Made by a program: the position numbers and the translations under genes
Notes under the pieces: generated by a model
What the model was told of the DNA's origin: nothing
The model's database searches: none
The model's input: only the letters and a program-made list of their open reading frames with translations
Shown here: positions 12,416-43,899 of the stretch, one piece after another
How the letters are laid out: every line of letters begins with the position of its first letter
Position numbering within the stretch: the stretch's first letter is position 1
Assembly: GCA_032622095.1 (NCBI GenBank)
Contig: CP136063.1
Coordinates: 92,605,980 to 92,669,979 of the forward strand
Direction: 5' to 3'
Length of the DNA: 64,000 nt
Origin: Siphonodentalium dalli
Taxonomy: Eukaryota; Mollusca; Scaphopoda; Gadilida; Siphonodentaliidae

Positions 12416-12535
12416 GATAATATTATTTCTGGGTGGGTATTTTCGGTGAGTTATATACCTAGCTATATATATCGAGATAGTTTTGCTGAAATTCTAACCG
12501 GTCATGAAAATGATTCACATGCTAATTCTCAACCT

Positions 12536-13004
12536 TCAAAGGCCCACTTAATTTTCGAGTCACCGATTTTTTTTATAGTGCCTTGATATACGGTTTTAAT
12601 AATAATCCATGCCATAAAATATGATTAAAATACTATAATTCATCACCATTTGAAACGTCTGTGTTTTAGGAGATGACCATAGACCCGTCATGGCTCCCAG
12701 AATGCAACAAAATTCAAACTAATAATGTACTTTCAATGGAACGGGAATAACTATATCTTTAAAATATAGAGGTATTCCCCCTCCATTTAAAATAATACAC
12801 TTTGCACAACAAAACCAGATGAAACTTAAGCACACACAAAAAAAAACACGTCAGTAACTCAACAAAAACAACATGTTCACAGTTTATTACAGGCTGTTAA
12901 TAATACAATGTTTTGGAGCTTCCTCTTTCAAATGGTATATAACATGCATGGCATGTAATTTATATATGTGATCTGGGGGTTCGAAAATGAAGTGGCCTTA
13001 AAGA
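12536..13004. mobile_element. MITE, TTAAAGGCCCACTT family, copy 1
   Basis: The left end reads AAAGGCCCACTTAATTTTCG and the right end, near 13000, reads back as CTTTAAGGCCACTTCATTTT. Shared internal blocks are CACCGATTTTTTTTATAGTG, TATAATTCATCACCATTTG, a Cys-free GGAGGGGGAATA palindrome around 12735-12790, and GTTTTGGAGCTTCCTCTTTC. It lies just downstream of the 3' end of the GPCR gene (minus strand) and may form part of its 3' UTR. Confidence 0.75.
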
Positions 13005-14510: not shown

Positions 14511-14530
14511 CTGCAAAAGACAAACGTGGG

Positions 14531-14929
14531 TTAACCCTTTACCCAACAGAAGGGCCCTGTGCCAATGCATTCTCTTATATATGCGAGTCGACCATAGGTC
14601 GCCTCGCATATATAAGAGAATGCATTGGCTTAACACATTACAAATTATAAAATTGTTAAAGAATGTAAGAAAAAATGGTAAAAAGTGTTAAAAAAAGATT
14701 TTTTATAGGCCAATGCATTCTCTTATATATGCGAGGCGACCTATGGTCGACTCGCATATATAAGAGAATGCATTGGCACAGGGCTAACTGTAACTATCAC
14801 AATGTGGTCAAGGAGCCGGTTCCAATGATATCCATATTTGTATGGTTCTATTGAGACAGACCTAAGTTATTTTAGGCTGTTGAAGCTTTATTTGGCCGGT
14901 TTTGGCCGTTTTGTTGGGTAAAGGGTTAA
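14531..14929. mobile_element. TTAA-flanked double-hairpin MITE, family 1, copy 1
   Basis: The ends are TTAACCCTTTACCCAACA and, on the other strand, the same TTAACCCTTTACCCAACA. Inside are two large hairpins, at 14563-14627 and 14711-14776, that are reverse complements of each other. Each stem pairs CCAATGCATTCTCTTATATA with its complement. The second copy at 58315-58712 is about 97% similar, so the family was active recently. The TTAA flanks and CCC starts suggest mobilisation by a piggyBac-type transposase (inference). It stops 20 nt upstream of the acceptor AG boundary of GPCR exon 3. Confidence 0.88.
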
Positions 14930-15033
14930 GCCGAATCCACTCCCATACACAAGGAACATGGTAACATGAATTATCAATATATTATATTGTAACAATTATT
15001 ATTGGGAATAAATATTATTAAACCAACCATTTC

Positions 15034-16080
15034 TATACTAAATGGACTCTTCCATTCAGTTATAACAATATACATTGGAACGGTATATTATTCATTTCGA
15101 GGGATGTTAAGGATAGAGTAGCACACGACAGCCTGACGAAAAGATAACACAAGTGCAGCATAAATGATATTCATTGGTGGGAAATTAATATTTAGATAAT
15201 AAGTTTAACTAAATTTATCAACGTATATATCGTTTATTGAACTTAATATCTAAACATTTCCTAAGGGAACTACTACAAATTGCTTGTTTCAGCTATTATG
15301 CATGTCACCGTGGCAATGTTTTTTTCTTCTAAAAATTAAATATTGTTCAAACAAAGCTACATCTTAATTCGTACAATAGTGGATTCACCGAAAAGCGGCA
15401 TAACGCATGTTGTCCACGAAGAGTTCTGTTTCAGATTCAATCTACTCGAAGACTAGATTGGTTCTGCTAAAAGGCTCTGTGCACGCTCTGATCAACTTAG
15501 AGTACTATTGACCTCACACAATAACATCAATTGGAAATAGCCGCTGATCGCGTGTCGACCACGACAAACAACCCGTGTGCTAACTGACGTTGAAGGGCCT
15601 TGGGTTTGGTAAAAAACAGGAGAACAATAATTATTGCAGTAATGGGATTGTGCTCTAAAACTGAGAATGGATCACAGAATGGATTTTCCGATTCAGTTTT
15701 AAAAGAACACATTTGAATGGCACATTATTATAAAGGAATGTTAGATAACAAAGTAGGGACATACTTAATATATAGTAGGCGTTCAACAAATAACTACAGC
15801 AGACATAAAAAGACTGTCTGTTAACCCTTGAAATACTTAATACACATTGTCGAGTAGTTCCCTTAGGAAATTTTCAGATAATAAGTAAAACATAGGTCGT
15901 TTGTTGACGTTATTATCTGAACATTTCACACCAAAGAATATGAATCCTTCTGCATGCACTTGTATTATTATTTTTATCATACTGTCGTCTGCTCATTTTC
16001 CGGAAAACCGCTCCAGATGAATAATAGACAATTCCAATGTATACTTTTATAACCGAATTGGAGAATCCATTTAGTCAACA
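15034..16080. mobile_element. foldback element, about 1.05 kb
   Basis: The left arm begins TATACTAAATGGACTCTTCC and passes through ATACATTGGAACGG and ATTATTCATTTCGAGGG. The right arm, read in reverse complement from 16080, gives GACTAAATGGATTCTCCAAT, ATACATTGGAATTG and ATTATTCATCTGGAGCG. Inner blocks (CCTAAGGGAACTACT near 15258; AGTTCCCTTAGGAAATTTTC near 15850) are inverted too. Related single arms occur at 13095-13325, 57020-57250, 60975-61035 and 61850-61970. There is no transposase ORF. Confidence 0.7.
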
Positions 16081-17916
16081 CATGGTTACATCTAAAAGCT
16101 AAACATCCTCATCAATGAATCTACACGAACCAAGTAACTACTCATTAGCGAGATTTCAGTCATCGAACTAGAAATTAATAAATAGTTTCTGTTTAACTCA
16201 AATGCTGTAATTCGTGCTCGGGACAGTCCGCTAATTTGTTGAAGAAGATGTGTTGGGACAATATTACCCATGAATAGTCTCAAACAATTACCAGTTGCAA
16301 TATAGGTTTTCGTATCAAACTATATGGTAGTCGTTAACTCTAAACACCAATTACATTTGTATTATGATAGAAGCTATAGGAGCTCCAACTTCATCAAATC
16401 GTCTGCAGGATTGCGACCTATTGCGAATGAGATATTGGGAACTCACTAAAAAAAATTACCCCTGGCTATATAACCCCACATACTCACCGCCTAATACCTC
16501 CCTCCCATACTGTACCTCAAATCGATATATCCCTTTCCCTATAATATAAATCAGTTTTCCTAACCATGCAGATAACATCACAGATAGCCTTATATACACG
16601 CGCGATAGCAGAACTTTAAATGATTTTATACATGCTATACACTATAAATCACACCAAAGCATGTTTGTTTCTAACTGTTTATATTATGTTTCCATACATG
16701 TATATATACCTATATTTTGTAGGGAAACGGATATTTATATAAGTTTGAGCACTTTTCCTCCAGCATCTTAAATGTACAATGTTTAACCATAATATCCAAT
16801 ATTTAAAAATAAAATGTTTTAAATCAAAATCAAATTGAAAGCATGTGATTATTAACCGCGATATGTGCGTGTTCCCGATGCGATATGCCTATATAGTGTC
16901 ATGCGAATCGGATATTTTGCCTCGAATCGATTCCCGGCACCAAAACGCCGTTGTGGACATTAATTCCGTTTTCTTTCTAATTGTGCACACTTTGGTCTAT
17001 GCCGAGTCTTCGTTCATATGTCATCAGTTGTGGTTTTTCAGATGTGAAACAACGAATTTTTACATCTTTCTTGAAACCCATGCATCTAAGTCATATGTTG
17101 TCACCTTTATGCATACGTTATTTGTGACTGTCTAATGGGTCTATATATATATGGGTCTATATATATAGGATATATTCTTCACTTTCCTTTACCATTGTTC
17201 AGATCTACATATATCACCACAGGCTCAAAAACGTTCAAACCACAAATTACTTGCTATCTATCACACAAAACGATGCGTGGTGTCGAATCATGCACATGGA
17301 ATCGAAAACAACTGCATCAGAGGGCCAATTCAGTGTCGATATCGAGTAGATCGATCGATATCGACATCGACGTTTGATCTGAGCCACTATTCATATTACG
17401 CTTATATGGAATTAGAATACATGTATACCTCATGCAGTTGGTTGACCTTTATGTGAGAACCAGAGTATTTAACTTCGTGGCTAATCGATACACCATAATT
17501 GTCTCAAACATAATGTATAAAAGCTAAACAATGGGATACCACAGAGAAGCGGCATCATCACAGCGGGTGACCTTCCTGTGAACACCTTGATACGAAACAC
17601 ACAGAGTCTCTTTCCGTAGCGTTCGATCGTGCCCCACGAGAGCAACAGCTGGACAACTTAAAATTCACATACGCGTCTTCCAACTATAATGACAAAATCG
17701 GAACATATGTACATACGCCATGATATTAACTGTTTTGCGACGAGAAACTGACAGACTGTTTATTCTATACACGCGTGTATTCGAAAAATATAACCGTACA
17801 AAAACAGGCGCATGTATCCTTCGGGTATTAAGCCATTGTGTGTGTGCCGGTGACATAGGTCGTAACCTGTTGCACGCGCGGTGTTATTGTGTGGAAGGGT
17901 AATCATATACTATACT
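16081..17916. other. intronic, nothing recognised
   Basis: AT-rich GPCR intron sequence. Short open frames at 16845-17135 and 17135-17377 have no recognisable domain. A tight cluster of TCGAT/ATCGA words sits at 17337-17371, forming small overlapping palindromes. Confidence 0.45.
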
Positions 17917-19956
17917 GAGTCGTTATCTCGTGGGAATCCGGATTCAGAATCCAAAGCCGATTACGGGGGCGGGGCTAATTCCCGATTCTAGGTCAGATTT
18001 TGAAATCCACATGGTCTCCGAAACTATGTTTAATGTTCTCCCAGCGTCAAACATGGCTCATGTATTTGACAAAAGTATCATTTGTATCTTATATTTATAA
18101 AGTTCACGTTTATTGTGAATGTCATGATTTTCTTCTATGCGTATATACACGGCACATAATTTGCTGCCAATCCGACTTAATCGCATATTTTTTTCAAGTT
18201 AAAGTGTGTTTATTGATGAGGGCAAGCATTTAATTCTAACAGCTCTAGGCATCCTGAATCAAATTCCGAAGATTTTGTGAAGAACACACGAAACTTGTCA
18301 GTTGCACAGGGACGTGACGACAGGGGTTGTTTGGGTGACTCGACCCCCCCCCGAACTTTGGTACAATTTGCTTAGCTGTGCAGTCATTCATACGTGAGGA
18401 AAAATCAGATTCTTTTGACTAACTGTTCCAAATAATGATACGTACAAGCCAGCAAACGCAACAAACAAACCCGATTTTAAATAAATACATATACAAACTT
18501 ATGACTAACTCGGGAGAGGGGTGACCGGTGATCTGTATATATGTTCAACTTGTTTTGGTAGTCATGTTGCTTTGCCATTACTAATTATTTATTTCTTCAG
18601 TGTAATAACATATGGGAGATGGGGTACCCTTCAGTGAGTCAGCACTTGTCCTCCAATCCCATTGTATGTATAAACAAATGTATGTGTTATATATCATGTG
18701 TTATCTAAATTTTACAAATATTTGAAATAAATATGTTTAAACTAAACTTTGGTACATTTCCAGCAGTTGGAAATTTCATGCATGACACAACATTAGTTGG
18801 ACATTAATTTAACACCATATATAGGTTGGAATTGTTCTCATTGTTTGATTTTTTCAACCAGTAAACGTTGGTAATTTTCCAATCTTAGTGTGTGTCAGTT
18901 TGGCTATTTCCAAGGGGTGCAAATGGAATTATGCGAACCTGCGAGATTGGTATTTGGTTCAATGGGGGGGGGAGGGGGTGCAGTTGGCTGGAAATTTGAG
19001 GAAACCTCTAGCCACGTCCCTAGAACTTGTAGGTGTGGGTGCTTAATCAATAAATTGACTGACATTTCCACTATATAGTCATGAGATCCTAGAATAAGCT
19101 TTACATTTTTGTTTGTGCGATTGGGAGATGCAGTTCACCTGCAATCACAAGACCACAAGATTAGCTTTATTTTCCAACTAATGTACAGTACGTTGGCCAA
19201 AAAATGCCTGTGTTTGTGCACTATACAGAGACTATTGTGAAAAACGACTGCATTTAACGAAACAAAACATTTTAAACATGAAATTGCTATAAGACTAGGT
19301 AGTACATACGTGTATCTGATAATCCATCGATATCATATAATCCTACTATTTCTTGAATAAGAAGAAACATTATAATAATGAACACAGCAGAAGACATATC
19401 CATGCAGGTTCACATGAATTCGGTCAATGGTGACGTATCCGCCGAATTCGAAATCGACATGCGTTCGGGCGGTATTTTATGGATGGAATTATGAAATGGA
19501 CATATGAAAGTGACAATAAAATCGACAATGATTTGCTTCGCCATCAACCGAAGTGCTCCCTCAGCGTTACTATCAATAGCGTTATTATTTGGCTAATTTC
19601 AGTAATATTCTCCCAGTTTACATTCGATAAAACAAATTTGTCTCCGCATTTAAAATTCTTTGATATAGATCGTTTATATTCTGCAATAATTTGTACACAA
19701 GAGACGGATTCTTATGTTTTATTGTGTTTTTAAACTCCGAGGTGGCGAAATCTCGGTTTGTTTACATTACGAACATTTGAGTCCGTAATCGGAATCGGAA
19801 TCCGAATCTGTATTACCACGAGATTGAGATTACGGTCTGTTCGGTTACTGATTCTGCCAATTTCTGGTCTGTTCGTTTACCGAACCAAGTCGTACGGGGT
19901 CTAATCTGTAATCTGAATCCAGATTCTGAATCCGGATTCCCACGAGATAACGACTC
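17917..19956. mobile_element. 2.04-kb element with perfect 35-bp inverted termini
   Basis: The first 35 bp, starting GAGTCGTTATCTCGTGGGAA, are repeated perfectly in reverse complement at 19922-19956. Subterminal GGATTC/GAATCC words are dense at the right (19785-19945) and sparser at the left. Flanks do not show a clear target-site duplication, so the superfamily is undetermined. No transposase was recognised; the open frames at 18000-18233 and 19479-19733 are not convincing. A G-tract dispersed repeat (18745-19020) is nested inside. It lies in GPCR intron 2. Confidence 0.75.
18745..19020. repeat. dispersed repeat with G-tracts, copy 2
   Basis: Shares with 10590-10915 the blocks GAAATTTCATGCATGA-like, GGAATTGTTCTCATTG, a G-run then TGCAGTTGG, and CCTCTAGCCACGTCCCT. 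It lies inside the 2.04-kb inverted-repeat element. Confidence 0.55.
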
Positions 19957-21185
19957 TGGGGTTCTTGGATTGGCAATGCATGGGATTAGTGTTTTTATGT
20001 CCTTTCGGGTCGATATTGCTGTTAGTAATATATTTAGCTTTTATATTTGAACTATATATGTCTGAAATAGACGCACTCTTTTTATACTAGAATTTGCGCA
20101 ACAGGATAATAAAGTGATCATTTCACCGGCATCTATATGCACATTATATCAAATAGAAACCCTCGGTGTCGATCGCATGTTAACGTCGTGCAACCCTAAA
20201 ATGCAATAATTGTGTTGTCGAACTTATACGGACACCCGATCGTGCAAAAAAAAATAAAAAATAGTACAAACAGACAATCACCGCTCAGTATTAGAATTGA
20301 GATCAGGTCATAATGAATATTAAAATGAGGCGCTGCGTGATTCGTAAACAAAAAATGAAAAAAAGTTGGAATTATCGACATATTTCTCCTCTATAGAAAT
20401 TGTTACTGACGATGTGTTGATTTGTATGAGTAAATAAATTATTAGCCGACAAGAAATCCCTGAGTGCTAGATGTTTAGTTGATCGTTTGACCGATTTTTA
20501 ATTATAGTAAGCCGTGCGGGGTGAAGTTAGAGGAACATATCGTCCATTGTTTTTTGAGCCGGATCAATCCGAAAATCTACGCTCTTCGGAGACAATATTC
20601 GGTGGTTAAAAATTTATCAAATGCTATGTATATGAATGTTTCTGATGGGAGTTTGTGGTATTGATTGAAAGATGAATCCTTCGCCGATACATCCGTGGCT
20701 ATATCGTTAGCATTACTGGTGTGAATGGGCTAAATTTGTCCGATTGCCGAGCGATGGTAAAAGGTGAATTTCCACAGTTCCCCTTGTCTCTATAATACTA
20801 CCATTAACGTGAAGCAGGCGCGTATATAGAAACGGCGTATATGGGCAGCGCAAGGGGGGGGGGGGGGGCAGCGGAGCGCGTTACAGGCCCGTGTGGCGTG
20901 TCCCGGAGGAGAAGTATATATATATATATATATATATAGAATAAGTCGCACCTTCCATATCAATAACATTTCATGACCTATTGTATCAATTGTTTAAACA
21001 AATCAATGAATACAACGTGCATTTTAACGCAGGAAGTTCCAAACATAATTATATAGAGATATATCTATGATATACCGTCATAACATTATTTAAGTACAGA
21101 TAAAATAGAATTCTAAACATGCAATTCACCATACTCTCACGGGATCGATTCGAGTCCACGGAGATACAACACAAAAGTACTGATT
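19957..21185. other. intronic, nothing recognised
   Basis: No gene recognised. A G-run at 20856-20868 and a (TA)n microsatellite at 20914-20938 are present. Confidence 0.45.
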
Positions 21186-21456
21186 TTATCCCTTTAATGA
21201 TGGTAGATGTGCTGGTGCAGCATTAAATATCATGTGCCAGTACATTCTCTTATAAATGTGGGTCTCCCACAGGGAGCTTCGCATATATAAGAGATATATA
21301 GCAATGGCGTACAAGTTCAGGGTACATGTTGTTAGGTCAATGCATTTTCTTATATTATATGCGAGGCTCCCTATGATAGACTCGCGTATAGAAAGAGAAT
21401 GCATTGGCATAGAGTTTTCGCAAAGTTGCACGAAGCTGCAGTCATGGAAGGGATAA
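21186..21456. mobile_element. diverged double-hairpin MITE (family 1 relative)
   Basis: The ends are TTATCCCTTTAATGATGG and, on the other strand, TTATCCCTTCCATGACTG. It carries two imperfect hairpins (21238-21300 and 21338-21410) using the same CATTCTCTTATA/TATAAGAGAATG stem words as the copies at 14.5 and 58.3 kb. Divergence is much higher, so this is an older relative. A one-ended relative starts at 55684. Confidence 0.65.
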
Positions 21457-21658
21457 CCCTGCTATTATAAGCACAGGCGACAGGCAGAGAAAATAATTGG
21501 GATGTTCAGACATAATTATGTTTGTTGAACTTATATGGTTGAACACATGAATCACCAGCCAATTAATGTTCTTTTGACTGCCCGAGCCATTCGACAAAGT
21601 CTGTATCAACAGATTGCCATTTACGTGTTGTCAAACGTCACTAATATATAATAACCCA

Positions 21659-22260
21659 CAGGGTCCGCGCTGGACCGAAATTTACTTTTGCCAAATAATT
21701 TGCCAAATGAAAATATTTTTTGCAAAATTATATTAGCATTTGCCAAATTTTATCTTTGATAGTATATTCTTCTGCAACCTTAATTATTATGTTTCGACAC
21801 TCGCGGGTTGAACGACTTTTGATATCGATAGAAAAGCAGTTGATAATTAATTATACTAGCATCTCTATTGTGGTTTATCATACACCAATAAGCCAATCAC
21901 CGGACAATAATATGGTAGAAGAGTTGCTTCAACAGAAGGCACATCACAGGAGGATTAGCTATGTAAACACTACCACCACACTAAATACTAGTAATCCCTC
22001 CAACCATCGGTACTAATGCTATGAGATTAACTGTATCTTACTAGAGGTGGTAACTTTTTCTAAACCTTATACAACACAACTAATATAATTATGTTGTAAG
22101 AGTTTCCTGAAATGAATGATATTGATTGACAAATATTTTTCAACTTTTTTGAGGAATTAAAAAGTTACTTGCCAAAACGTTTGCCAAATGAAAATATTTT
22201 TTGCCAAATGTGAATTATTTTTGCCATTGGCAAATTTGGCAAGTGGCAGCGCAAACCCTG
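21659..22260. mobile_element. hAT-like MITE
   Basis: The left end is CAGGGTCCGCGCTGG and the right end, read in reverse, is CAGGGTTTGCGCTGCCAC. CAGGG starts of this kind are typical of hAT elements. TAACCCA occurs just outside both ends, directly on the left and after 3 extra bases on the right, so the expected 8-bp duplication is imperfect. The word TTTGCCAAATGAAAATATTT is repeated near both ends in the same orientation. The 98-codon frame at 21720-22016 is not a recognisable transposase. Confidence 0.55.
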
Positions 22261-22637
22261 AATTAACCCACCCTCAATATTCACATAATTAGCTAATGGA
22301 GGAATCAGTACATTTCGCCATACCGCTAACATGAACGTTTCCGATGTTCACAAACCAATAACTAAAGTCGACAGGGCACATACTTATTGGCCGATGAACG
22401 AAACAACTAGGTCACTTTAAGCCGATCGTGTGCACCCGCTCGCTGCGTGTTGTTATTCAGAAACTGTATTGGAAATTAACAGTATGGTACTAACAATTGT
22501 TTTGGTAGTTTTAAAAAGTTCAAATGATTAATGTTCCATTAAAATATACTGGCATATCATTATAAGGAATGACTTGCAGATCGATTGGGGTAAATAGTTT
22601 TGACTGGCAGAGTAATTAAATAAAGTTCGTGTGAATC

Positions 22638-24560
22638 GTATTGACTAATATCAGGGGGTATATTATATGTGTTAATTAACCCTTTGAACCCGTAACACCG
22701 ATATTTAGGTGCAAACGAACCGTGACTATATCCCGTAACACCGATATTTCGGTGCAGCGACGACATGATTCGGTAGCAAATTTATATATAGTATAACGAG
22801 CGTCTGACCCACTGATTTATATTTAAATTGCCCCCACATATGTCAGCGGCGCCCATGGTGCGTATGGAATGGTTGACCGCTAGTATCGGGTAGAAATATA
22901 TGCGCATGCGCATAGCATATAATCTACAAAAACATACGATATTTTAAGCGAACTATGCCGCTATATTTACGGCATATAATTTCGTGTTCCCCGTGTGTGT
23001 ACAGAACAGACGTAATTTAGACACACAATTTCAGTTTAAATTACCCTCGTGTATATTAACCAGTGTTCTGCTAATACATATGGGGAAGGGTCTATCGCAT
23101 ATGAAGTTGATTTATTCGCGCATGCGCAGACTAGCGCAATGACAAATAAATGGTTTATAACGTACTTATACACGACATACCCACTAATATATATATTTAA
23201 ATTGGCCTATTGAAGTCAGCGCTGGCAAAGGTGTCTATATGGATTGGCTGTCCGCTAGAAATGGCTAGGAAAATATGCGCATGGGCGCAGACTATAATTC
23301 ATTTTTTAAAATGCGTTTAAGTTAAATGTGGCGCTATATATGACATTTTGTTGCATGTTTCACATGTTAGTATAGTAGACACAATCTAGACAGCTTACTT
23401 GAACAATGGGGCCACGATATGTTACGGGAAATTACGTTGTTTCTGGTCTCTGTAATATCAGTCTCTGTTGTGCCACATGCAGCAAAAAGTCTATCGCATA
23501 TCAAGTTGACTTACTCGCACATGGTCAGGTATATCTTAATTTCACATTAGGATATTGGTTGCATCGAAACGCAATTCGCTGATGTATAATTACAACGTTA
23601 TAAGCCAGAATTCGTTTATCCTGCAAATTTCGGGTAGTTGCCTAGTAACCGTTTCTAAGGCGAGATCGGGTGGCAAAGTCTCCCGATCTTACAATGATCA
23701 GTGGTCCGTGCATGCATATATCATGCCTGCACAGTTTCAGGTAGGTGTTCCCTTTCAACATAACCAACACCATGCGACTAGACACTGTCTAAATTAAGGC
23801 AAAACATACCACTGAATGGCTAGTGCAATTATGTCATTCGATCAGTTGTGGTATTTGCTTAGCAACCGTTGCTACCCTTAAATGGGATATTTGGTTCACT
23901 ATTCTGGTCGGGTATATCTCAAATTTCACGTCAGGGTAGTACCTGCATCAAAAAACGCAATCACTGAGGTTGAATTACGACGCTATAAGCTATATTTACA
24001 TTTTCCAGTCAATTCCGGGTAGTTGCCTAGCAACCGTTACCAAGGAGTTGCCGCGAGGCAAAGTCTCGCGATCTTATAATGATCGCTGATCCATGGGGGA
24101 CAAACCTGTAAAGTTTCAGACCGGTGTCGCAATTTGAACATAATCAACACCATGCTACTAGAAACTATCTAATTTAAGCGGACATACCACTGGGAGCCCC
24201 GGGTCAGGGTGTCGATCACTGTGGGGCGCCAGGGTTCAAAGGGTTAAGCTGAATTGGTCATTGTCGCCTGGCATCGTGCAAAAAGACTCACATGATCTCT
24301 CAAACGTGTAAAAAAGACACACAGGATCTCCCAAATATGACAACAGGTCACAAAGCATTTCAAATTCTTGTTCGTCTGCGACAGTCAAACTCAACACTAG
24401 TGCAATACCCATGCATGCATTCAAATTCCGTTGAAATTTCACTCGAAATTCACAAAACAAATACTTATTGTATTAATAATAATAATTAGCATGCGACTAA
24501 TTTATAATCGAGTTTTATATGAGACATTTGGGATGCTGTGTAACATTTTGCACATTTGAG
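22638..24560. repeat. minisatellite-bearing element X, copy 1 (interrupted)
   Basis: Starts GTATTGACTAATATCAGGGG at 22638. It is interrupted at 22676-24247 by a TTAA element and resumes with AATTGGTCATTGTCGCCTGG, a few GATCTCTCAAACGTG units, then CTTGTTCGTCTGCGACAGTC and an end at about 24560. The same order of blocks recurs at 26667-27975, where the internal minisatellite is greatly expanded. Confidence 0.75.
22676..24247. mobile_element. 1.56-kb TTAA element, family 3 (piggyBac-type ends)
   Basis: The inner element is 22680-24243, with ends CCCTTTGAACCC and, on the other strand, CCCTTTGAACCC, flanked by TTAA at 22676-22679 and 24244-24247. The paralogous locus at 26667-26730 has the same flanks with a single TTAA (26706-26709) and no insert, which directly shows the TTAA duplication. 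The left end has a doubled phrase CGTAACACCGATATTT; the interior has repeated blocks around CTAGCAACCG and CCCGATCTTACAATGATC-like motifs. No transposase ORF was seen. piggyBac affinity is inferred from the TTAA target and CCC termini. Confidence 0.88.
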
Positions 24561-25310
24561 ATACTTACACCCCCTATATGTACTATTCTACCTGTCTATA
24601 CGGTGCATTCCATCGGATACCTACACGCCCTATATGTACTATACTATTCTACCTGTCCATACGGTGTATTCCATTCGGATACTTACACGTCCTATAATGC
24701 ACCGATCTACCTGTCTATACGAAGTATTCCATTCGGATACTTACACGTCCTATAATGCATCGATTTATCTGTCTATACTTACACGTCCTATAATGCACCA
24801 TTCTACCTGTCTATACGGTGTATTTCATTCGGATCCTTACACGTCCTATAATGCACCGATCTACCTGTCTATACGGTGTATTTCATTCGGATACTTACAC
24901 GTCCTATAATGCACCGATCTACCTGTCTATACGGTGTATTTCATTCGGATACTTAAAAGTCCTATAATGCACCGATCTACCTGTATATACGATGTATTAC
25001 ATTCGGATACTTACACGTCCTAAAATGCCCGATCTACCTGTCTATACGGTGTATTATATTCGGATACTTACACGTCCCGTAATGAACCATTCTACTTGTC
25101 TATACGGTGTATTCCATTCGGATACTTATACACCCCTATATGTACTATTATACCTGTATATATGGTGTATTACATTCGGATACTTACACGTCCTGTAAAG
25201 CACCAATCTACCTGTCATTACGGTGTATTACATTAGGGTACTTACACGTCCTATAATGCACCGATCTACCTCTCTATACGATGTATACCATTCGGAATAC
25301 TTACACGTCC
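24560..25310 (-). repeat. minisatellite of duplicated GPCR splice donors
   Basis: About 13 intronic units of roughly 57-59 bp follow the end of GPCR exon 2. On the minus strand the real exon end reads GGACGT followed by GTAAGTAT. The 12-mer GGACGTGTAAGT occurs nine times: at the true junction (25299-25310 in plus coordinates) and at plus starts 25240, 25182, 25066, 25009, 24893, 24777, 24739 and 24681. Other units are mutated (for example 24951, 25126). The spacers (TATACGGTGTATTCCATTCG on plus) are also shared with the true intron start. Plus-strand open frames here are repeat-encoded. Confidence 0.92.
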
Positions 25311-25468
25311 TAGGTACCACTCGAACTCCCACACATACATAGAGAGTCTCTCTAGAACGCAGAATATTCCGACGCAGAAATCCGCCACTGCCAAGTTAGC
25401 CAAGAAAAAGTTGGTCCGCGTTCGCATCCGATCGCTCTTTAAGATCACCAACAACACCAGCAGGTTAC
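25305..25468 (-). CDS. GPCR exon 2 (end of TM1 to extracellular loop 1)
   Basis: This 164-nt internal exon completes one split codon and then encodes 54 residues. The split codon plus first residue give GN, the conserved TM1 motif; NLLVLLVIL ends TM1, KSDRMRTRTN is loop 1, and TM2 contains NLAVAD (LxxxD type) and FCVGIFCV. The exon ends in WYLGR, just before the TM3 ALCK of exon 3. The acceptor ATTGTTTCCAG sits at 25469 upward and the donor GTAAGTAT at 25304 downward. Both phases match, with 54 + 347 residues of the receptor continuous across the junction. The preceding exon must end in one base of the Gly codon; I did not find it. The open frame upstream to 25502 is intron. Confidence 0.93.
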
Positions 25469-25565
25469 CTGGAAACAATAACATAAATTGTAAAAAGGAC
25501 ACAGAAACAACACCAGCAGGTTACTTGAAAATAAGTTAAATTGTATAACAGACCCAGAAACATTA
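25469..25565 (-). repeat. duplicated acceptor junction of GPCR exon 2
   Basis: The first bases of exon 2 and the intron end before them are repeated once, 56 bp upstream in the gene. AACAACACCAGCAGGTTAC occurs at 25450-25468 (true exon start) and at 25506-25524. The extra copy, on the minus strand, reads TTATTTTCAAG followed by TAACCTGCTGGTGTTG, so it keeps an AG but has lost the GT after it. Similarity continues for the rest of the 56-bp unit (AAATTGTA, ACCCAGAAAC). Confidence 0.85.
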
Positions 25566-25698: not shown

Positions 25699-26178
25699 GT
25701 TTAAAGCCCACTTAATTTTCGAACCCCCAGATTACATTATATAAAATAAATGCCATATTATATACCATTTGAAAGAGGAAGCTCCAAAACAATGTATTAT
25801 AAACTTATCCGGTGTAATAAACTGTGGACATGTTGTTTTTGTTGAGTTGCCAACGCGTTTTGTCATCTAGATTGCAGTAAAAAGCAGTATTGTTTCAATG
25901 CAGGGGGAATAACTCTATATATTAAAGATGGAGTTCTTCCCCTTTCATTGAAAAAGTTTGAATTATGTTGCATTCTGGAGGGAAGAGGGGGGAAGTCATT
26001 CTATGATTTCAGCAGTTTTCTGTTTCTCTTTGAGCATCTTCTGAGACACAGATGGTTCAAATTGTGATGAATTATAGTATTTTAATCATATTTTATGGCA
26101 TATATTGTTATTAAAACTATATATCAAGTCACTATAAAAAAAATAATCGGCGACTCGAAAATTAAGTGGGCCTTTAAA
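25699..26178. mobile_element. MITE, TTAAAGGCCCACTT family, copy 2
   Basis: Starts TTTAAAGCCCACTTAATTTT at 25699 and ends with AAAATTAAGTGGGCCTTTAA at 26178. Internal blocks match the copies at 12.5 and 58.8 kb (GAAAGAGGAAGCTCCAAAAC, a GGGGGAATAACTCTATAT palindrome, and the 3' CTATAAAAAAAATAATCG block). Confidence 0.8.
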
Positions 26179-26626
26179 GGCCCATTTAATTTTCGAGTCA
26201 CCGATTATTTCTTTTTTTATAGTGCTTTGGTCTACGGTTTTAATAACAACATGTGACATAAAATATGATTAAAATACTATAATTCATCACCACTTGGAAC
26301 GTCTGTGTCTCAGAATGTGCCCATAGTGTAATAGAAAATAGCTGAAATCATAGAAATATTCCCTCCGTCTCGCTCCCAGAATGCAACAGAATTCTAAAAA
26401 TATAGACACACAGTAATTCCCCTTCCTTTGAAAACAATAGACTTTGTGAAACTATGCACAGAAAACACGTCGGCACTTCGACAAAAACACCATGTTCACA
26501 GTTTATTACACAGGATAAGTTGACAATGCAATGTTTTGGAGCTTCCTCTTTCAAATGGTATATAATATGGCATATATTTTATATAATGTAATCTGGGGGT
26601 TAAACAATTAATTGGGCCTTTAACAT
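26172..26626. mobile_element. MITE, TTAAAGGCCCACTT family, copy 3 (opposite orientation)
   Basis: It begins at the shared TTTAAAGG centre with CCCATTTAATTTTCGAGTCA and ends AATTGGGCCTTTAA near 26622. It is oriented against copy 2, so the two meet head to head at a palindromic junction at 26155-26195. Confidence 0.78.
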
Positions 26627-26666: not shown

Positions 26667-27975
26667 CGTATTGACTAATATCAGGGGGTATATTATATGA
26701 GTTAATTAAGCATAATTGGTCAATTGTCGCCTGGTATCGGGCAAAAAGACTCCCGGTATCTCTCAAATGTGCAAAACAGACTCCAGGGAAAATCTCAAAC
26801 GTGTAAAAAGACACCAAGCTAGGATTTATCAAACGTGTACACAAGACACCAAGCTAGGATCTCTCAAACGTGTAAAAAAAACACCACGCTAGGATCTCTC
26901 AAACGTGTAAAAATAAAGAAGAAAAAACACCCAGCTTAGATCTCTCAAATTTGCAAAAAAGACAGGATGTCTCAAACGTGTGAAAAAGACATCCAGCTAG
27001 GATCTCTTGAAGCGTGCAAAACAGACACACGGCTAGGATCTCTCAAACGTGCAAAACTGACACACGGCTAGGATCTCTCAAACGTGCAAAACAGACACAC
27101 GGCTAGGATCTCTCAAACGTGCAACAACGACTTACATGCAGGATCTCTCAAACGTGTTTGCACAAAATATACCTAGGATATCTTTCAGACGTGCAAAAAA
27201 GACACCCAGCTAGGATCTCTCAAACGTGTGAAAAAGACATCCAGCTAGGATCTATCAAACGTGCAAAACAGACACACGGCGAGGATCTCTCAAACGTGCA
27301 AAAAAAGACTTACATGATGTCTCAAACGTGTGAAAAAGACACACAGATAGGACCCCTCAAACGTGCAAAACAGACACACAGGATCTCTCAAACGTGTGAA
27401 AAATACACCCAGCTAGGATCTATCAAAAGTGCAAAAAAACCCACCGAGCTAGGACCTCTCAAACGTGCAAAAAAGGCACACAGCTAGGATCTGTCTAACG
27501 TGCAAAAAAGACACCCAGGATCTCTCAAACATGTAAACAAGACACCAGCTTGAATCTGTTAAACGTGCAAAAAAGACACACATGCAGCTATAGGATCTCT
27601 CAAACATGCAAAAATACACCCAGATAGGATCTCTCAAACGTGCCAAAAAGACACACAACTAGGATCTCTCAAACGTTCAAGAACACACACAGGATCTCCC
27701 AAATATGACAACAGGTCACACAGCATCTCAATTTCTTGTTCGTCTGCGACAGTCAAACTCAACGCTGGTGAAATAGCAATACATCCGTTGAAATTTCACT
27801 CGAAAATCACAAAACAAATACTTATTGTATTGATAATATTAATATGCGACTAATTTACTATCGAATTTTATATGAGACATTTTGAGATGATGTGTGACTT
27901 TTTGGAGATCCTGTGTGTTTTTTTGCACGTTTGGGAGATAATATGTGTCCTTTTGAACGTTTGATAGATCCGCGC
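26667..27975. repeat. element X, copy 2, with expanded 35-bp minisatellite
   Basis: It has the same left boundary (GTATTGACTAATATCAGGGG) and uninterrupted TTAA site as copy 1. About 27 units of GATCTCTCAAACGTGCAAAA plus AAGACACCCAGCTAG run from 26735 to 27690, with lengths from about 26 to 37 bp. The right part (CTTGTTCGTCTGCGACAGTC) matches copy 1. At 27870-27970 a few units appear in reverse orientation. Open frames here (27119-27487 plus, 27449-27658 minus) are repeat-encoded. Confidence 0.85.
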
Positions 27976-28029
27976 AACAGTTACCAATTCAGCGTAAATT
28001 ATAGAACGTTTGAGACAATTAAGTGTGGG

Positions 28030-34105: not shown

Positions 34106-34549
34106 AAGTAATGTGGTCATGTTTGAGATTCTGGTTTCATAACATATTTCAGGTTTTCCTGTTATTCTTAGTTCTCTGTGAATAAAACAGAACACTTTCG
34201 ATTTACTGTGCGCCCCCTCGATGACGACCGACTCCGGGGTGAGATGAGAAACTAACATTCCATGCACCCTTCTGATTTAGCCCTGCTCATAGGTGCTTCT
34301 TGGTCGCAAATATCCCAATATTTTTGTAGTGCACAACCTATCGTTAACGATGATGGCATCAAGTATATACTTATAACATGCATGTGTTATGACAACCAGA
34401 TATAGGTTCCTGCCATATATTAATTTATTATCAGTCTGTGGGTATACTAGAGAGTAATCATGCAACCCTGTTTGAGAGTTAGGGTATGTGCAATTAGCTG
34501 ATGTTGAACTCTCACTGAGAAAAAATGCGGGTCAATCCACACCTTTCAG

Positions 34550-35150
34550 TAAGTCACTATGACTAACTCTGGTCTTAGTCAAAGTGACTAAGTTATACGA
34601 AAAATAACTCTAATTAAAACACTGCCTTAAATGGTGCTTATCAGTATGCTTATCATAAGTTCAATTTCCATTGCATCGCAATTCTTTTATAGATCTATAT
34701 TTAAACGAAGGAAATGGGAGGATATAATGGCATATGTATCAGAACTTCACAAATTGTGTTACAACTCTCAACAGACCAGTATTGGAATCTGTGTTTAGAG
34801 AATTGATTGAAAGTTTGTCCTGCTTTTAACTCGGTCACTCATTCCGGATAATATATCACCTGGTTGAGTATTGAAATTATTTGTACAAAATTTTCACAAA
34901 ATTAAATCCCCCCTTCCAAGTGACTAAGAAAGGTTAGTCATTATGACTCAATCCTGGTTATTTTGACAAACACAATTGTAGTTTAATGAAAAAATTAGTC
35001 GTTTTGACTAACATTTCTTAGCCTTTATGACTAACATCACCCTAGTAATTATGACCAATATTATGCCTAAGTCATTTTGACTAAGCTAAGTTAGTCATCC
35101 CGGAGGGACAAGCGGTTGACTAACCTCAGTTAGTCATATTGATAAACTGT
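34550..35150. mobile_element. AGTCA/TGACT-rich element, copy 1
   Basis: Dense TTAGTCA/TGACTAA words in both orientations mark both edges: AGTCACTATGACTAACTCTG on the left, and CTAAGTTAGTCATCCCGG plus CCTCAGTTAGTCATATTG on the right. A diverged copy lies at 61128-61755. No ORF of note. Unclassified, probably a foldback-type MITE. Confidence 0.7.
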
Positions 35151-35477
35151 TTTTTTTCCAATGCCCCTGTCTGCTTAACATATTGTTTCTCGATTTCCTG
35201 GATTCATATATATTATTTTATACTCTGTATGGAAGCTATACAACTTGCTGGGAATCGTTCTATCATTCAGTTCCTGTCAACACAAAAACTTCTTCCACAG
35301 ACTGAGTTAACATCCACCAGAATCGTCCGTTTGAATGTGTAATCTTCCTTATTAGTAGCAAATGGGGTATGATCTCTGGAAACATACATTGACAATACAC
35401 CGCCTACGTTTCGTGATTGCTCAAATGGAATCAATCATTCATTAGATTGGTCAACAGACAGAACTTCCGGTCACACG

Positions 35478-35687
35478 TCAACTAATTGAGACTATCGGTT
35501 GGTCCGTTACCGGTGGAGTTAATATGTAGATTCTTACCATGGCAACCATCTTACAGTGAGATACCGCTCTCACTGGGTCTTGGAAAACAGCTTGATTGTA
35601 TAAATTAGCTATACATGCTTCTGGAGAACAAAATGCAGAAATTATACTGAATACTCCATCATCTAGTCCAGTTTTCGTCCATTCCAC
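35478..35687 (-). other. candidate small exon (uncertain)
   Basis: On the minus strand a pyrimidine-rich ATTTTGTTCTCCAG is followed by an open stretch including ANLYNQAVFQDPVRAVSHC and then two donor-like sites (ACTGTAAGATGG and ATGGTAAGAATC). The identical arrangement is present in unit 2 at 43291-43500. I recognise no domain and see no neighbouring exons, so this may be chance. Confidence 0.2.
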
Positions 35688-35714
35688 CAGTCAGTGCCAC
35701 ATTGGCAGCGTTTT

Positions 35715-36086
35715 ATATTGACTTGATATACGGTTATAATAAAAATCTATGCCATAAACTATGATTAAAATAGTATAATTCATCACCAATTGGAACGTCA
35801 GTGTCGAGAAACCCACCCATCAAAGCTCAGAGTGATCAGACATCGATTTTTGAAATTTGTTAATTTCTCGAGATGTGGCCCAGAAAACACGTGATCAAAC
35901 GGACAAATTGCGGATAAAGATGGATAACTATAAAATCAAGTGGTTATTATTACGCGATTTGTCCGTTCAAAAATCGATATCTGATCACTCTGAAATTTGA
36001 TTTGTGGGTTTCTCGACTCGAATCAAATATTTTTACACCGAAGCCAAGGAATTTAGGAGCGTCTGATCGGATTGAGTACATTTAAC
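35715..36086. mobile_element. chimeric MITE remnant (two families joined)
   Basis: 35715-35811 is a fragment of the TTAAAGGCCCACTT family (GATATACGGTTATAATAAAA, TATAATTCATCACC). It joins directly to a TTAAAGGTAC-family body (CATCAAAGCTCAGAGTGATC, GAAGCCAAGGAATTTAGG, GGATTGAGTACATTTAA). The same chimera is at 43528-43899 in unit 2. Confidence 0.65.
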
Positions 36087-36564
36087 AGAACGAGACCCTA
36101 AAACAAATAAAAAGGGCTAAAATGGCTCATTCTAGCCACCAAATACAACTATTTTTCGACATCAAACTCTGATCAAAGTCGCGCAATACTATTTAAAACT
36201 GGGATATAATACCGAATACCGTCTATCTGTCAGGGTTAATGTACGAGCTGAACTAGATGATCGAGGGCATGCATATGTAGTGATTCCCAAAGTTCAAATT
36301 GGAATTCCCGAACGCGCGTTAACACTAATGTAAACACATAGTATTCCCACATGTAACCAGTATGTTACCATACAATATGACATGTCTATTTGCGGGGATA
36401 AACATGATTACCGATTCATAAATTAGTATGTGCTTATATGTATCCGCACGTCAACTATCACAACATACCGTATTTCTTTGTTAGCCAAAGAAATAATAAT
36501 TTAGGGGCGTTAAATCTGATTATGTACATGTACTGACAAAACTGATTCGAATCCCAAATACACT

Positions 36565-37860
36565 TATAGTTTTTTTGTTTAAACATATTTTATCGTAATA
36601 TAATATTACACAAGGGATCGGGGCACAAGTTTTAACAACTTAAATCCGCCCCTCTCCCATATACATTTTAACAAATACAAAGTAGATGACGAACATAACA
36701 TATATACAAGATGATGTATGGTGTGGTTGTGATTGCTGTCAGTCCTATCCTGCTTTTGAAATTTCATCTGAGGTAGTCAACATTTGTAACGCAAAGGAGG
36801 ATCTCGCCTATATTTGTTAGCGGAGGGGGCCTAATTAAAGCGTTTCGTTGATGAAATGTATGAATAAACAAAATGGAAAAGAATTTCATTGCGTCGATTC
36901 GATTCTGATGATATCCCTGTGAGTAAGGAGGAAATGTTAGATATTATAAATTGGTGGGCCGCAATCTTATTGAAGAGTTCGCATCTTTCGGTAGCATACA
37001 GGGGGCACTCAAAGAAATAATGAAAGGCATCTTCGACTTCGTATCCACATGTGCATTTAGAGGTATCAGAGATAAAATTGTTGCACATATCTGATTTTAA
37101 TTCACTACAATAGTTGCGAATTCTGCAGTATAAAATGCTTAATTTTCTTGGACCATTAATAAAGAATTGGGGAGGTTTCGTGGGCGGGTCAATTAATTTC
37201 AAATTCATCTTAAATTCAGGAAGAGTACTTACATTTGTAATAGGCTTTGGTAGTTTATTCCAAGATAGCGTACTTTTAGGTAAATAAGAGTTTCTGAAAT
37301 GTTCTGTATGCGAACGGTATGAATAGAATTTGTCAGGTTCGCGCATATCATATCGATTACTGGCAACTTAAATTGTCTTGATCGGGGTGGCAACATGAGC
37401 GTGAGGTAATTGGGGACTTGGTTGTTTATTATTTTAAACATGGTGTGCAACTCGTGGAGTTCTCGTCGAATTTCAAGCCTTGACCATCCTACTTCGTCAA
37501 ACAAGCGATTTATATCTACGGAACGCGTTAATCCTGTTACTATATTCTTGCAGCATCCTTGTGTATGTCATCGAACCTTTTTAATAAGTAATCTGTTGCT
37601 GTGCCCCACATTACATCGGCATAGTCTATAATTGGTAATATATATGCTGTGTATATTTTTTCAAGCGACTTTCGGTCTAGGTCGTACTTCAGTCTTCTTA
37701 ATTGTGAGAGACGAGATGTTGCTTTGTTTGCTATTGTATTTATATGAGTGTTCCAGTTTAGATTCGATTGTATTTCAAGTCCAAGATGTTTGTGTGAGTT
37801 TGTAAATAATACATTTTCTTGTTCGAATTTTAAATTCGGGGTGTTCACGCAGGCAAAGAT
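36565..37860 (-). pseudogene. 5'-truncated LINE reverse transcriptase tail, copy 1
   Basis: On the minus strand three frames read as the C-terminal part of a non-LTR retrotransposon polymerase: 37540-37848 (HKHLGLEIQSNLNW; ILPIIDYADVMWG, the thumb region), 37229-37504 and 36831-37346. The last holds a zinc-knuckle-like CTCGYEVEDAFHYFFECP motif typical of Jockey/I-like elements. Two frameshifts separate the pieces, near 37538 and near 37335, so it is dead. The upstream polymerase core and endonuclease are missing, as expected for 5' truncation. The 3' region ends in an A-rich stretch near 36570. The clade call is tentative. Confidence 0.85.
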
Positions 37861-39948
37861 ATAGTATGCGATATCTGTATATGGGCAAGTTCAGCGGCTA
37901 GTTAAATTTTCAAGGAAATTGCTCTCATGTGTGGTCCCGAAGCAACGAAATACTCAAAGTAACCAACTTTATACCCCATGGAATCCCAATAGTGCTGGTG
38001 ACATAAGTTCCCAAAATCGCACGAAATACCACCACGTGACCAGGTATGGCTATAACTTCCATAGCATACAACTCAAGGTCACGAAAATCCAATAGAATTT
38101 TGGAATTCTTTGACGGCCTCGCGATTTAGAATAACTGTGGGGAAAACTAAAAAATCTGATAACGAGGCTACCTACGATCGATCAGAGATCAGAGTGCAAT
38201 ACAAATATTCCATTAAAATCGTGCATATATTAGTCAGAGTGGTTTGATTACAAGACACTTCCGGCCGTAACAGTTTTAGAACCAGGAAGTAACTGGCTTT
38301 ATGAATTTCAAAAGATTTAAACATAATGGTTTTGTATATATGATAGCTATTTGGCACAGCTTGTCCCCGAGACATACGGACGTTGGCCTTTGTACATGCG
38401 TGGGACTATATAACACACAGGGCGCCGGTTTTAGAGATGCATGGGTTTTTGAGACCGTGCTATTTAGTTTTAGGGTGACCGTTTTTGGTAAAACAGAAAT
38501 ATATAAAATGACAATCAATAAGTGTCAAACTAAAATCAATATTTTAGTATAAATTAATAAACATTAATTGTTTTAAAATTAGCTCTTATATCTCTATTAT
38601 GACTAAATTGTCATACACATATACAATGTATATTAAGTGGAAAGAATCACAAATTATTTAAATCATAGTCTCGGGTCCCGTATATACTCTGTATATATAT
38701 ACAGTATGTGAACAAATTATAGAGCGTTCGGCTCACTGTTGTGCGTAAAATTGAAAGCAGTTAACTATAAATTTGTATCACTTATATATGTATCACTTCA
38801 TAGTATATGAAACGTGTATAAGTGTTCAGTGTACATTCGTATGCCTATTTAAATCGCACTTGGATATAATAAACTAATATCCCAGACACTAAATCAGTTA
38901 CAATTTCCTAAGCCAGTTTTCAGCTAATATCAGGCGAACAAAACATGGAAATTGCAATAAGTGACGTTCGTAACACACGGTCATCACATACTCCATATAC
39001 GAATATCCAAGATATGGTGGATCTCCGACGAGTTATATGTTGGCATATAGGATTTTATGAAGCTAGTTTGATAAATTTGATTCGAACGAGTGCCATAAGA
39101 CATGTATCTTATATCCCAACATAACGAGTTGAAGATATTGTATATCACATGAGAAAACTAGAGCTTTATGACTTTTTAACAAATCAAAATCCTTAAAAGA
39201 AGCTTCAAAAACGCATACATTTCCAGCGTTAGCTGAGACGCTCCACAACATTTCACGACAGTATTGCGCGCTCTGGGGCTGGCGACGGAAAATATAGTCC
39301 CCCAATTTTCCTCTTTGTTTTTGTGTCTCTTTTCGTTAGTGCAATGAAGTTGGACAAGAACATAACTTTAATGAACAAAACAGTCATTTTGCATTGTCTG
39401 GTGTATTGCAATGTGAGGCTTTTTGAAATAGTACTAATCCGTCTGAATCAATGTAAAGACGCGCGGTCATTATGTTGGCGCGATGCAAAGTGATATGTAA
39501 CTGGAAATGATATAATAGGCGTTTCATGTTTCACGCTCTGTACAATATGTGATATTTTGGATTTTGTTATCTCCAGAACAATTAAAACACTGATAAAACT
39601 GCCTCTTTTGAACTTCGAATTGTGATCACCGAAACCTCTTACGAATTGACCTATAAATTTTCGATCTCATTATTACTGGCATAGAACATGTACAAATAAT
39701 AGTCTAATCAGACGATTCTTCGGAGGCAAAATCCATATAACATAAATATAGGTGTGAGATGAATTGCTGGATACACCCATACACTACACATGACCGCTAA
39801 GGGGAATGCCCATCGAATATAGTATAGCTTTGTTCGATTCGTCGAAGATAACTAAACACGAAAATATAGGACAAATGTAGGTTCTTGTGCTTTTGTAAAT
39901 TTTAAAGGGACACAAGGCACTCGCATTGGGTAATTGTGAAAAAAAAAT
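37861..39948. other. non-coding part of unit 1
   Basis: No domain recognised. At 39040-39190 a block (GATTCGAACGAGT, ATCCCAACATAACGAGTTGA, ATATTGTATATCACATGAG) is related to the repeat at 55445-55640. A (TA)-rich palindrome GTATATACTCTGTATATATA lies at 38682-38704. Confidence 0.5.
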
Positions 39949-40009
39949 CAGCGAACTATAGCGTTAATAGTGTGGTAGACTACCACACTATTAACGCTAT
40001 AGTTCGCTG
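39949..40009. repeat. perfect palindrome, 30-bp arms
   Basis: The left arm starts CAGCGAACTATAGCGTTAAT and the right arm is its exact reverse complement with one central base. Repeated unchanged in unit 2 (47714-47774). Confidence 0.97.
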
Positions 40010-41712
40010 GTAGTTATGGAGTAACACCTGGAACAAATTGGTTAATTATCGAATCTGGTATCTTTCGAAAGAGGAGACCTTTGTCAACAGAAATATGAAA
40101 AGTCCGCAAAAATCCGCTTTGTGGAAAGTTTGTTATCCAAGATGGCGTCCAACATGGTTGTCTATATTACACTAGTTCTCGAAATCAGTCATGATATGAT
40201 ATATGTGGCGTAAGTGACCAGTTTGTGTGAACTAAGAGTACTTAGGGTTACTGGTCGGAGCTGACACACGACTTGTTACTGGTCGGACTTCCTAATGTAG
40301 CTGCAAATGCCCCCCCCCCCAAAAAATAGGGCGCACATGTAACCCAGTAACGTATTGGTTACAAATTAATGTGTCGTATTTTTTTTCTGCACCAAAATCT
40401 ACCATATATGAGAGTACATGAGCGAATGAAGTGCCACAGAAATCGTGTCCATGAGATGGCTGTTAAAATGGCCGCAACCCCAAGACATGCCACGACGAAA
40501 GCAACATATTAGATAACCACATGGGAGTGACAATACGTAAGGGCAATGTACAAGTATGTATTATCTTTAAAGGTACACATATCACTAAACACAGCCATCT
40601 TAATGATGTATCGGTCACTGCAACCCAAGACAAACCAAATTATTTACGTCTTTAATGTTAGGGGTTTCTGCTTAGAATTCCACAACAGTCGGGCCAAAAC
40701 ATATAATTTCGGACATGCAACACACGAAGAAATGTTCCGAAACAAGATGGTAGTTCTCGTTGGGCATAATGATTAATTTCGAATGTTACGCAGAATTTGA
40801 ATTTGCGGCACAAATACTAGTTACAGTTTCGCTATGTTCAACACTTTCCGTGATAACAAACCACACACGTATGCTTCGATGCGTATTATACTGTCATTTC
40901 TCACACGAATTAGCACCTAATCTCAGAAGATCGTGCATTTTATATAAAACATATTATTTTCATGCTGCTATCAAACCGGGTTCTGGGTGTGCCATTTTGT
41001 TCAAATTTCTTCAGTCGGCATTTTACAACTCGAATATGCTACCACGCAATGCACAATATTCGTTGACAGTATCTTTTGTTTAGAACTATATTATAATACC
41101 ACCCATGTATTTGTGTGCTTATCAGGTGATCGGCGTTTAAATCTGTTATTTCAGCGATGCCTATTCACTCAATCTTGCTATTCATGGCTGTGTGTACAGC
41201 CTTTATATGTAACATTATGGAGAAGGGGTAAACACGTTGTGATGCGGTTATGGAAAACATAGTGCCGGTCGCCTATATGTGGCCTTTGTGATTATAAGTA
41301 AATATGATTTTTTTTCTTCAGATATAAACACAGTCTCTGCCACAGAGTATACAGGCAATTGTGGTCCAGTTTAGAATTTATTGAAAATAGTCTGTTATTC
41401 ATTTGTGTTTTGATAAATTGCCTTCATAGTATACCACCATGCATTTCTGTGATAAAAACGAAATATTCGTGTTTCAACAATTGATCAGATGCAACTATGA
41501 CTAATATTGTGAGACACGGATAATAGGAACAACACATTTTATCCAATAATCTATGCATATCTTTCATATTGTCCCATAGCAGTGAATTTTGAACACTTTG
41601 GTGTTGTGGTTGTCAAAATAAAAAATTCGTGATACTGTTCTGAGTACATATGCTTCTGCTTCTAGAAAAGGCAACAGGATCAATGTATCCCTGGTAAATC
41701 CAATGTAACTGT

Positions 41713-41962
41713 TTAAAGATGCATAATCCAAATTAACGGTCGCAAATTACCATTTCCTTGGTTTCGGAGGTAAACAATATTTGAATCGAGTCGAGAACCC
41801 CACCCGTCAAAGCTCAGAGTGATCAGATATCGATGTTTGAAATCTATTATTTTTACCACCGATAATTCTAAGTGGCCCAGTAAACAGTCGACGAGAAGAA
41901 TTTCTCTGACCAAATTGTGGATGAAGATGGATAATTCTAAATCAAGTGGCTTTTTTGTTTCA
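41713..41962. mobile_element. MITE, TTAAAGGTAC family, copy D truncated by the duplication
   Basis: Identical to the first 250 bp of the complete copy at 49476-49942 and cut exactly at the duplication junction (41962). Confidence 0.85.
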
Positions 41963-42361
41963 TGGTTTTCCTGTTATTCTCAGTTCTCTGTGAATAAAAC
42001 AGAACACTTTCGATTTACTGTGCGCCCCCTCGATGACGACCGACTCCGGGGTGAGATGAGAAACTAACATGCCATGCACCCTTCTGATTTAGCCCTGCTC
42101 ATAGGTCCTTCTTGGTCGCGAATATCCCAATATTTTTGTAGTGCACAACCTATCGTTAACGATGCTGGCGTCAAGTATATACTTATAACATGCATGTGTT
42201 ATGACAACCAGATATAGGTTCCTGCCATATATTAATTTATTATCAGTCTGTGGGTATACTAGAGAGTAATCATGCAACCCTGTTTGAGAGTTAGGGTATG
42301 TGCAATTAGCTGATGTTGAACTCTCACTGAGAAAAAATGCGGGTCAATCCACACCTTTCAG

Positions 42362-42965
42362 TGAGTCACTATGACTAACTCTGGTCTTACTCAAATTGAC
42401 TAAGTTATACGAAAAATAACTATAATTGAAACACTGCCTTAAATGGTGCTTATCATTATGCTTATCATAAGTTCAATTTCCATTGCATCGCAATTCTTTT
42501 ATAGATCTATATTTAAACGAAGGAAATGGGAGGATATAATGGCATATGTATCAGAACTTCACAAATTGTGTTACAACTCTCAACAGACCAGTATTGGAAT
42601 CTGTGTTTAGAGAATTGATTGAAAGTTTGTCCTGCTTTTAACTCGGTCACTCATTCCGGATAATATATCACCTGGTTGAGTATTGAAATTATTTGTACAA
42701 AATTTTCACAAAATTAAATCCCCCCTTCCAAGTGACTAAGAAAGGTTAGTCATTATGACTCAATCCTGGTTATTTTGACAAACACAATTGTAGTTTAATG
42801 AAAAAATTAGTCGTTTTGACTAACATTTCTTAGCCTTTATGACTAATATCACCCTAGTAATTATGACCAATATTATGCCTAAGTCATTTTGACTAAGCTA
42901 AGTTAGTCATCCCGGAGGGACAAGCGGTTGACTAACCTCAGTTAGTCATATTGATAAACTGTTTT
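42362..42965. mobile_element. AGTCA/TGACT-rich element, copy 2
   Basis: Duplicate of 34550-35150, with several substitutions in the left terminal region (GGTCTTACTCAAATTGAC instead of GGTCTTAGTCAAAGTGAC). Confidence 0.7.
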
Positions 42966-43527
42966 TTTTTCAATGCCCCTGTCTGCTTAACATATTGTTT
43001 CTCGATTTCCTGGATTCATATATATTATTTTATACTCTGTATGGTAGCTATACAACTTGCTGGGAATCGTTCTATCATTCAGTTCCTGTCAACACAAAAA
43101 CTTCTTCCACAGACTGAGTTAACATCCACCAGAATCGTCCGTTTGAATGTGTAATCTTCCTTATTAGTAGCAAATGGGGTATGATCTCTGGAAACATACA
43201 TTGACAATACACCGCCTACGTTTTCGTGATTGCTCAAATGGAATCAATCATTCATTAGATTGGTCAACAGACAGAACTTCCGGTCACACGTCAACTAATT
43301 GAGACTATCGGTTGGTCCGTTACCGGTGGAGTTAATATGTAGATTCTTACCATGGCAACCATCTTACAGTGAGATACCGCTCTCACTGGGTCTTGGAAAA
43401 CAGCTTGATTGTATAAATTAGCTATACATGCTTCTGGAGAACAAAATGCAGAAATTATACTGAATACTCCATCATCTAGTCCAGTTTTCGTCCATTCCAC
43501 CAGTCAGTGCCACATTGGCAGCGTTTT

Positions 43528-43899
43528 ATATTGACTTGATATACGGTTATAATAAAAATCTATGCCATAAACTATGATTAAAATAGTATAATTCATCACC
43601 AATTAGAACGTCAGTGTCGAGAAACCCACCCATCAAAGCTCAGAGTGATCAGACATCGATTTTTGAAGTTTGTTAATTTCTCGAGATGTGGCCCAGAAAA
43701 CACGTGATCAAACGGACAAATTGCGGATAAAGATGGATAACTATAAAATCAAGTGGTTATTATTACGCGATTTGTCCGTTCAAAAATCGATATCTGATCA
43801 CTCTGAAATTTGATTTGTGGGTTTCTCGACTCGAATCAAATATTTTTACCCCGAAGCCAAGGAATTTAGGAGCGTCTGATCGGATTGAGTACATTTAAC
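43528..43899. mobile_element. chimeric MITE remnant, duplicate
   Basis: Copy of 35715-36086 in unit 2, with only single-base differences. Confidence 0.65.

Follow-up and report, generated by a model that had tools for sequence, protein, structure and literature searches.

A splice donor repeated in a minisatellite at the edge of a receptor exon in Siphonodentalium dalli, probably a tolerated local tandem duplication

In the scaphopod Siphonodentalium dalli, exon 2 of a receptor gene ends inside a minisatellite that repeats the splice donor of the exon, which raises the questions of where the array came from and whether it matters for splicing. At this locus eight donors with an equal core come after a single exon end, and it would show directly how the splicing machinery picks among equals. 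The window analyzed is a stretch of 64,000 nucleotides (C3:92605980-92669979) from a genome of 2.23 Gb in nine contigs. Exon 2 (25468-25305, minus strand, 164 nt), recognized by GNLLVLLVILKSDRMRTRTNFFLANLAVADFCVGIFCVLERLSMYVWEFEWYLGR and by the Pfam match of the spliced product, joins in frame with exon 3 (14510-13467, minus strand), which by frame and Pfam match holds the remainder, TM3 through the stop codon; together they encode a class A receptor, with coverage beginning at the end of TM1 and extending to the C-terminus. The acceptor of exon 2 is CAG|GTAACC at 25468, and the exon ends at 25305 with the phase-0 donor CGT|GTAAGT. The predicted donor, GGACGT|GTAAGT, occupies 25299..25310 on the minus strand, with the intron beginning at 25304. 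Intron 2 covers 14511..25304 (minus strand, 10,794 nt), and the reading frame continues across the exon 2/exon 3 junction as EWYLGR-ALCK. The spliced product matches Pfam 7tm_1 (E 1.4e-54), and its nearest solved structures are peptide receptors, e.g., NK3, SSTR5, galanin 2, and QRFP; judged by its sequence, the gene is a predicted neuropeptide-type class A G protein-coupled receptor (GPCR) gene. A search for exon 1 in the remaining window yielded no convincing candidate for a TM1 exon ending in a phase-1 donor.

The donor-side minisatellite (24560..25312, minus strand; TRF score, 764) consists of 14 units with a period of about 58 bp. The first-pass annotation had reported that the donor 12-mer recurs eight more times with a period of about 57 to 59 bp, and both observations were reproduced. 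The exact GGACGTGTAAGT occurs nine times on the minus strand of the window, first as the exon 2 donor (low coordinate 25299) and then as eight identical decoy donors within 24681..25251 (25240, 25182, 25066, 25009, 24893, 24777, 24739, and 24681). Spacings between units are 59, 58, 58, 58, 57, 58, 58, 58, 58, 38, 58, 62, and 56 bp. The same annotation correctly placed the donor in the first unit but let the array start at the junction, whereas it begins 8 nt within exon 2. Unit 1 comprises the last 8 bases of the exon and the donor (TAGGACGT followed by GTAAGT...), and the minisatellite spans the exon-intron boundary, with exonic sequence, intronic sequence, and the splice site all inside the array. 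When up to two mismatches are allowed, GGACGTGTAAGT occurs 13 times in the window, compared with a mean of 3.75 and a maximum of 9 in shuffled sequences. Degenerate decoy donors on the minus strand lie at 24835 and 24563, where GT is kept (GTAAGG and GGTGTAAGT, respectively), and at 24619 (GTAGGT), while GT is lost in the units at 25135, the diverged 14th unit, and 24962. The units differ mutually by 5 to 30%, one is 20 bp shorter, and the window contains no N. Tandem arrays are error-prone in assemblies, and the exact copy number could be wrong here; however, units diverged by 5 to 30% do not result from an assembler duplication, and an assembly artefact is hardly credible as an explanation of the array.

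Use of any decoy would run exon 2 into a stop codon. The read-through peptide is VSIPNGIHRIER followed by a stop, and the in-frame TAG (25266..25268, minus strand) lies 37 to 39 nt into the intron, consistent with the earlier estimate of about 40 nt. Every decoy-extended exon would therefore carry the same premature stop, and the truncation of the receptor predicted previously would be common to all of them. The exon 2 donor itself appears to have no intrinsic advantage over the decoys. Scoring of the 5' splice sites, as proposed in the first-pass annotation, gave equal values for all nine GGACGTGTAAGT sites with a weight matrix of vertebrate type, and it separated one site from the rest by pairing with the 5' end of U1 (ViennaRNA): eight of the nine reach -7.4 kcal/mol and unit 2 reaches -6.9 kcal/mol, slightly weaker because of GTAAGTAC. 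Given the equal donor scores, any advantage of the exon 2 donor would have to be one of position or exonic context, and a positional advantage may exist for the first donor after a 164-nt exon.

Other ways in which the units might act in splicing were considered. Masking of the decoys by a hidden RNA structure was rejected, with the fold of the first three array units no better than that of shuffled sequences (z +1.27). In-frame micro-exons of 24 nt inside the units (VDRCIIGR, from ACAG to the next donor) have an open frame in five of seven matched units; they were rejected for want of a pyrimidine tract, the pyrimidine content before ACAG|GTAGA being 35 to 45% in the units versus 65% at the real exon 2 acceptor. 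Likewise, the AG|GT in the units has no pyrimidine tract that would make it a recursive splice site or the start of a new intron within the array.

Leaky or regulated use of the decoys would extend exon 2 into the TAG and expose the transcript to nonsense-mediated decay, with the array length setting receptor output. The decoys do share the CGTGTAAGT core with the exon 2 donor, most of them also match its predicted U1 pairing energy (-7.4 kcal/mol), all would lead to the same truncation, and two of the downstream repeats in human IFI6 serve as donors (PMC4526556). However, the donor part of the units shows no constraint. Mismatches counted against the unit consensus in 13 units, with the first unit excluded, amount to 10/156 (6.4%) in the donor 12-mer versus 57/537 (10.6%) in the rest of the unit (p=0.13), with 4/78 in the GTAAGT core, and, ordered by conservation, the donor window comes 11th among 47. 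Selection for or against the decoys was rejected as giving no signal at the low power that 13 units afford, the decoys being neither visibly maintained nor visibly purged. The background duplication rate (see below) also accounts for the coincidence of array and donor, and leaky or regulated use of this kind is unlikely. Quite unlikely, too, is a length-dependent dial, in which additional units would raise both the number of competing U1 sites and the extent of decoy splicing into the stop; if it were true, length variation of the minisatellite would set the amount of functional receptor. The array might also serve the long intron as a cluster of U1 sites, for instance if it guarded the intron against premature polyadenylation or held U1 close to the exon. 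Within 630 nt of the start of the 10.8-kb intron there are indeed nine identical strong matches to U1, with GTAAGTAT in eight of the nine, but the donor part is no more conserved than its surroundings and only 1 of 21 GPCR exons viewed has such an array, which makes this role very improbable.

The immediate surroundings of the array suggest a further source. A copy of a dispersed inverted-repeat element (24244..24556, minus strand) adjoins it in intron 2 with the left end missing at the array junction, where GTAAGTATC/TCAAATG shows a short ATC overlap. A second copy (26700..28005, minus strand) lies in intron 1 and holds a different minisatellite of its own, an expanded 35-bp repeat (26758-27695); the two copies flank exon 2 in the same orientation. 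The element has inverted ends near GCTGAATTGGTCATTGTCGC, with 40 of 1263 first-look candidates scored. In principle, such a mobile element could have inserted at the edge of the exon and brought the splice donor with it, the array being its cargo or a part of it, and both neighbors would agree with that. However, 8 bases of exon 2 belong to the array, the 58-bp unit is present in 0 of 28 element copies elsewhere (30 matches were fetched, 28 of them outside the locus), and a genome search, which may skip very common words, found the donor-side array at a single locus. A mobile-element origin of the unit was ruled out on the single locus and the 28 copies, and we regard it as extremely unlikely. 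An introner or a transposon-borne splice site was also rejected, as the sequence carrying the splice site is confined to one locus and not dispersed. The single locus and the element copies without the unit indicate that the array was seeded locally, from the exon 2/intron 2 boundary itself.

Tandem duplication is common in this genome. In 120 kb sampled from 20 places across it, tandem duplications with 1.9 or more copies account for 7.4% of the bases, and arrays with 2.8 or more copies account for 3.3%. Since tandem duplications make up about 7% of the genome, the array is ordinary as a genome feature. Among 20 other GPCR donors, with duplicate loci counted once, 1 lies within a tandem duplication versus 1.5 expected, although 12 of the 20 were viewed over about 350 nt of intron, where longer duplications could be missed. 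Donor-spanning duplications in the GPCR sample are as frequent as chance predicts, and their enrichment in GPCR exons was rejected (P for at least 2 of 21, 0.46). The one case is a class A receptor exon (L016; C2:115212283) at which 115 bp are perfectly duplicated in tandem, from 14 nt within the exon onward and with the donor GCAT|GTGAGT included (1659-1882 of L016; G000:C2, about 115212441-115212664). It is a second, independent donor-spanning case in the genome, unrelated to the 58-bp array.

The best reading is, with good confidence, a local tandem duplication that was tolerated and is neutral as long as the first donor is used. Its breakpoints would lie in exon 2, 8 nt from the exon end, and in intron 2, about 50 nt from the intron start, and the duplication would then have expanded to about 14 units. 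With every copy placed downstream of where the exon originally ended, the normal exon would still end at the first donor, the change would be close to neutral, and the 10.8-kb intron would absorb the extra copies. The first-pass annotation had offered buffering, regulation, or disturbance of splicing next to mere slippage from the junction. Its slippage alternative is favored here as plain tandem duplication by the single locus, the donor motif being neither conserved nor purged, the background rate, and L016 at chance frequency; a regulatory role found no support from locus count, donor conservation, background rate, or GPCR comparison. Use of the first donor and neutrality are presumed, and the persistence within 630 nt of eight decoys sharing the 9-mer core of the exon 2 donor counts against strict neutrality. 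Real donors of human genes seldom have decoys of similar strength within 150 nt (PMC8964760), and in combination with the equal-core decoys this means that strict neutrality is not a given. Some decoys could be used leakily.

The acceptor side of exon 2 carries a separate tandem repeat of two copies at a distance of 56 bp (TRF, 25450-25562). The first-pass annotation had described this single repeat properly but counted 18 bases of the exon in it, whereas the duplication shares 19 nt of exon 2, the first G included, together with the acceptor region. The upstream copy (25506..25562, minus strand) contains the decoy CAAG|TAACC, in which the AG is shifted by one: the decoy junction reads CAA|G versus CAG|G at the real acceptor, and the nearest AG is one base shifted and 55 nt away. 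This duplication would be tolerated in mirror image, with the last acceptor used and the upstream copy lacking CAG|G. In general, a donor-crossing duplication would keep the exon as long as splicing uses the first donor, and an acceptor-crossing one as long as it uses the last acceptor; exon 2 conforms to this scheme on both sides. Exon edges can absorb tandem duplications in this way, with donor copies falling downstream and acceptor copies upstream, and the exon can stay intact.

The closest known case appears to be the minisatellite of human IFI6 (6-16, G1P3), reportedly described with its multiple splice donors by Turri, Cuin, and Porter in 1995. The IFI6 repeat unit is 12 bp, and therefore downstream donors there add codons in frame. 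In both genes the minisatellite stands at an exon end and its unit carries a splice donor, the identical 12-mer being present here in 9 of the 14 units. Unlike in IFI6, the unit here is about 58 bp, the decoys would lead to a stop (TAG at intron codon 13) and not to a longer protein, and the donors are predicted from sequence. The IFI6 minisatellite provides multiple splice donors (PMC4526556; PMC2572611), and two downstream units are reported to be used, giving three mRNAs (PMC4526556). Human duplicated genes also have internal tandem repeats at their exon-intron boundaries, and these alter splicing (PMC2812944). Like the present array, they cross the boundary; there, paralogs differed in the number of repeat copies and their transcripts had altered introns, whereas the present array is known from the sequence of one genome. 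Tandem duplication across an exon-intron boundary can also create introns (PMC4974935). The boundary-crossing duplication multiplies splice signals in the same manner here, but no new intron is indicated. The locus is useful as a test case of equal donors, though its kind is already known.

Other repeats were observed in the window. A long palindromic repeat element (25699-26624) with arms about 77% identical lies about 230 bp upstream of exon 2, and relatives of it are found at 12533-13002 and 58801-59298. A tandem segmental duplication of about 7.8 kb (34189-41962 and 42001-49725; 98.9 to 99.9% identical) contains non-LTR reverse-transcriptase-like ORF fragments, recognized by eye. A further minisatellite at 62891-63211 comprises about 5 copies of a 65-bp unit.
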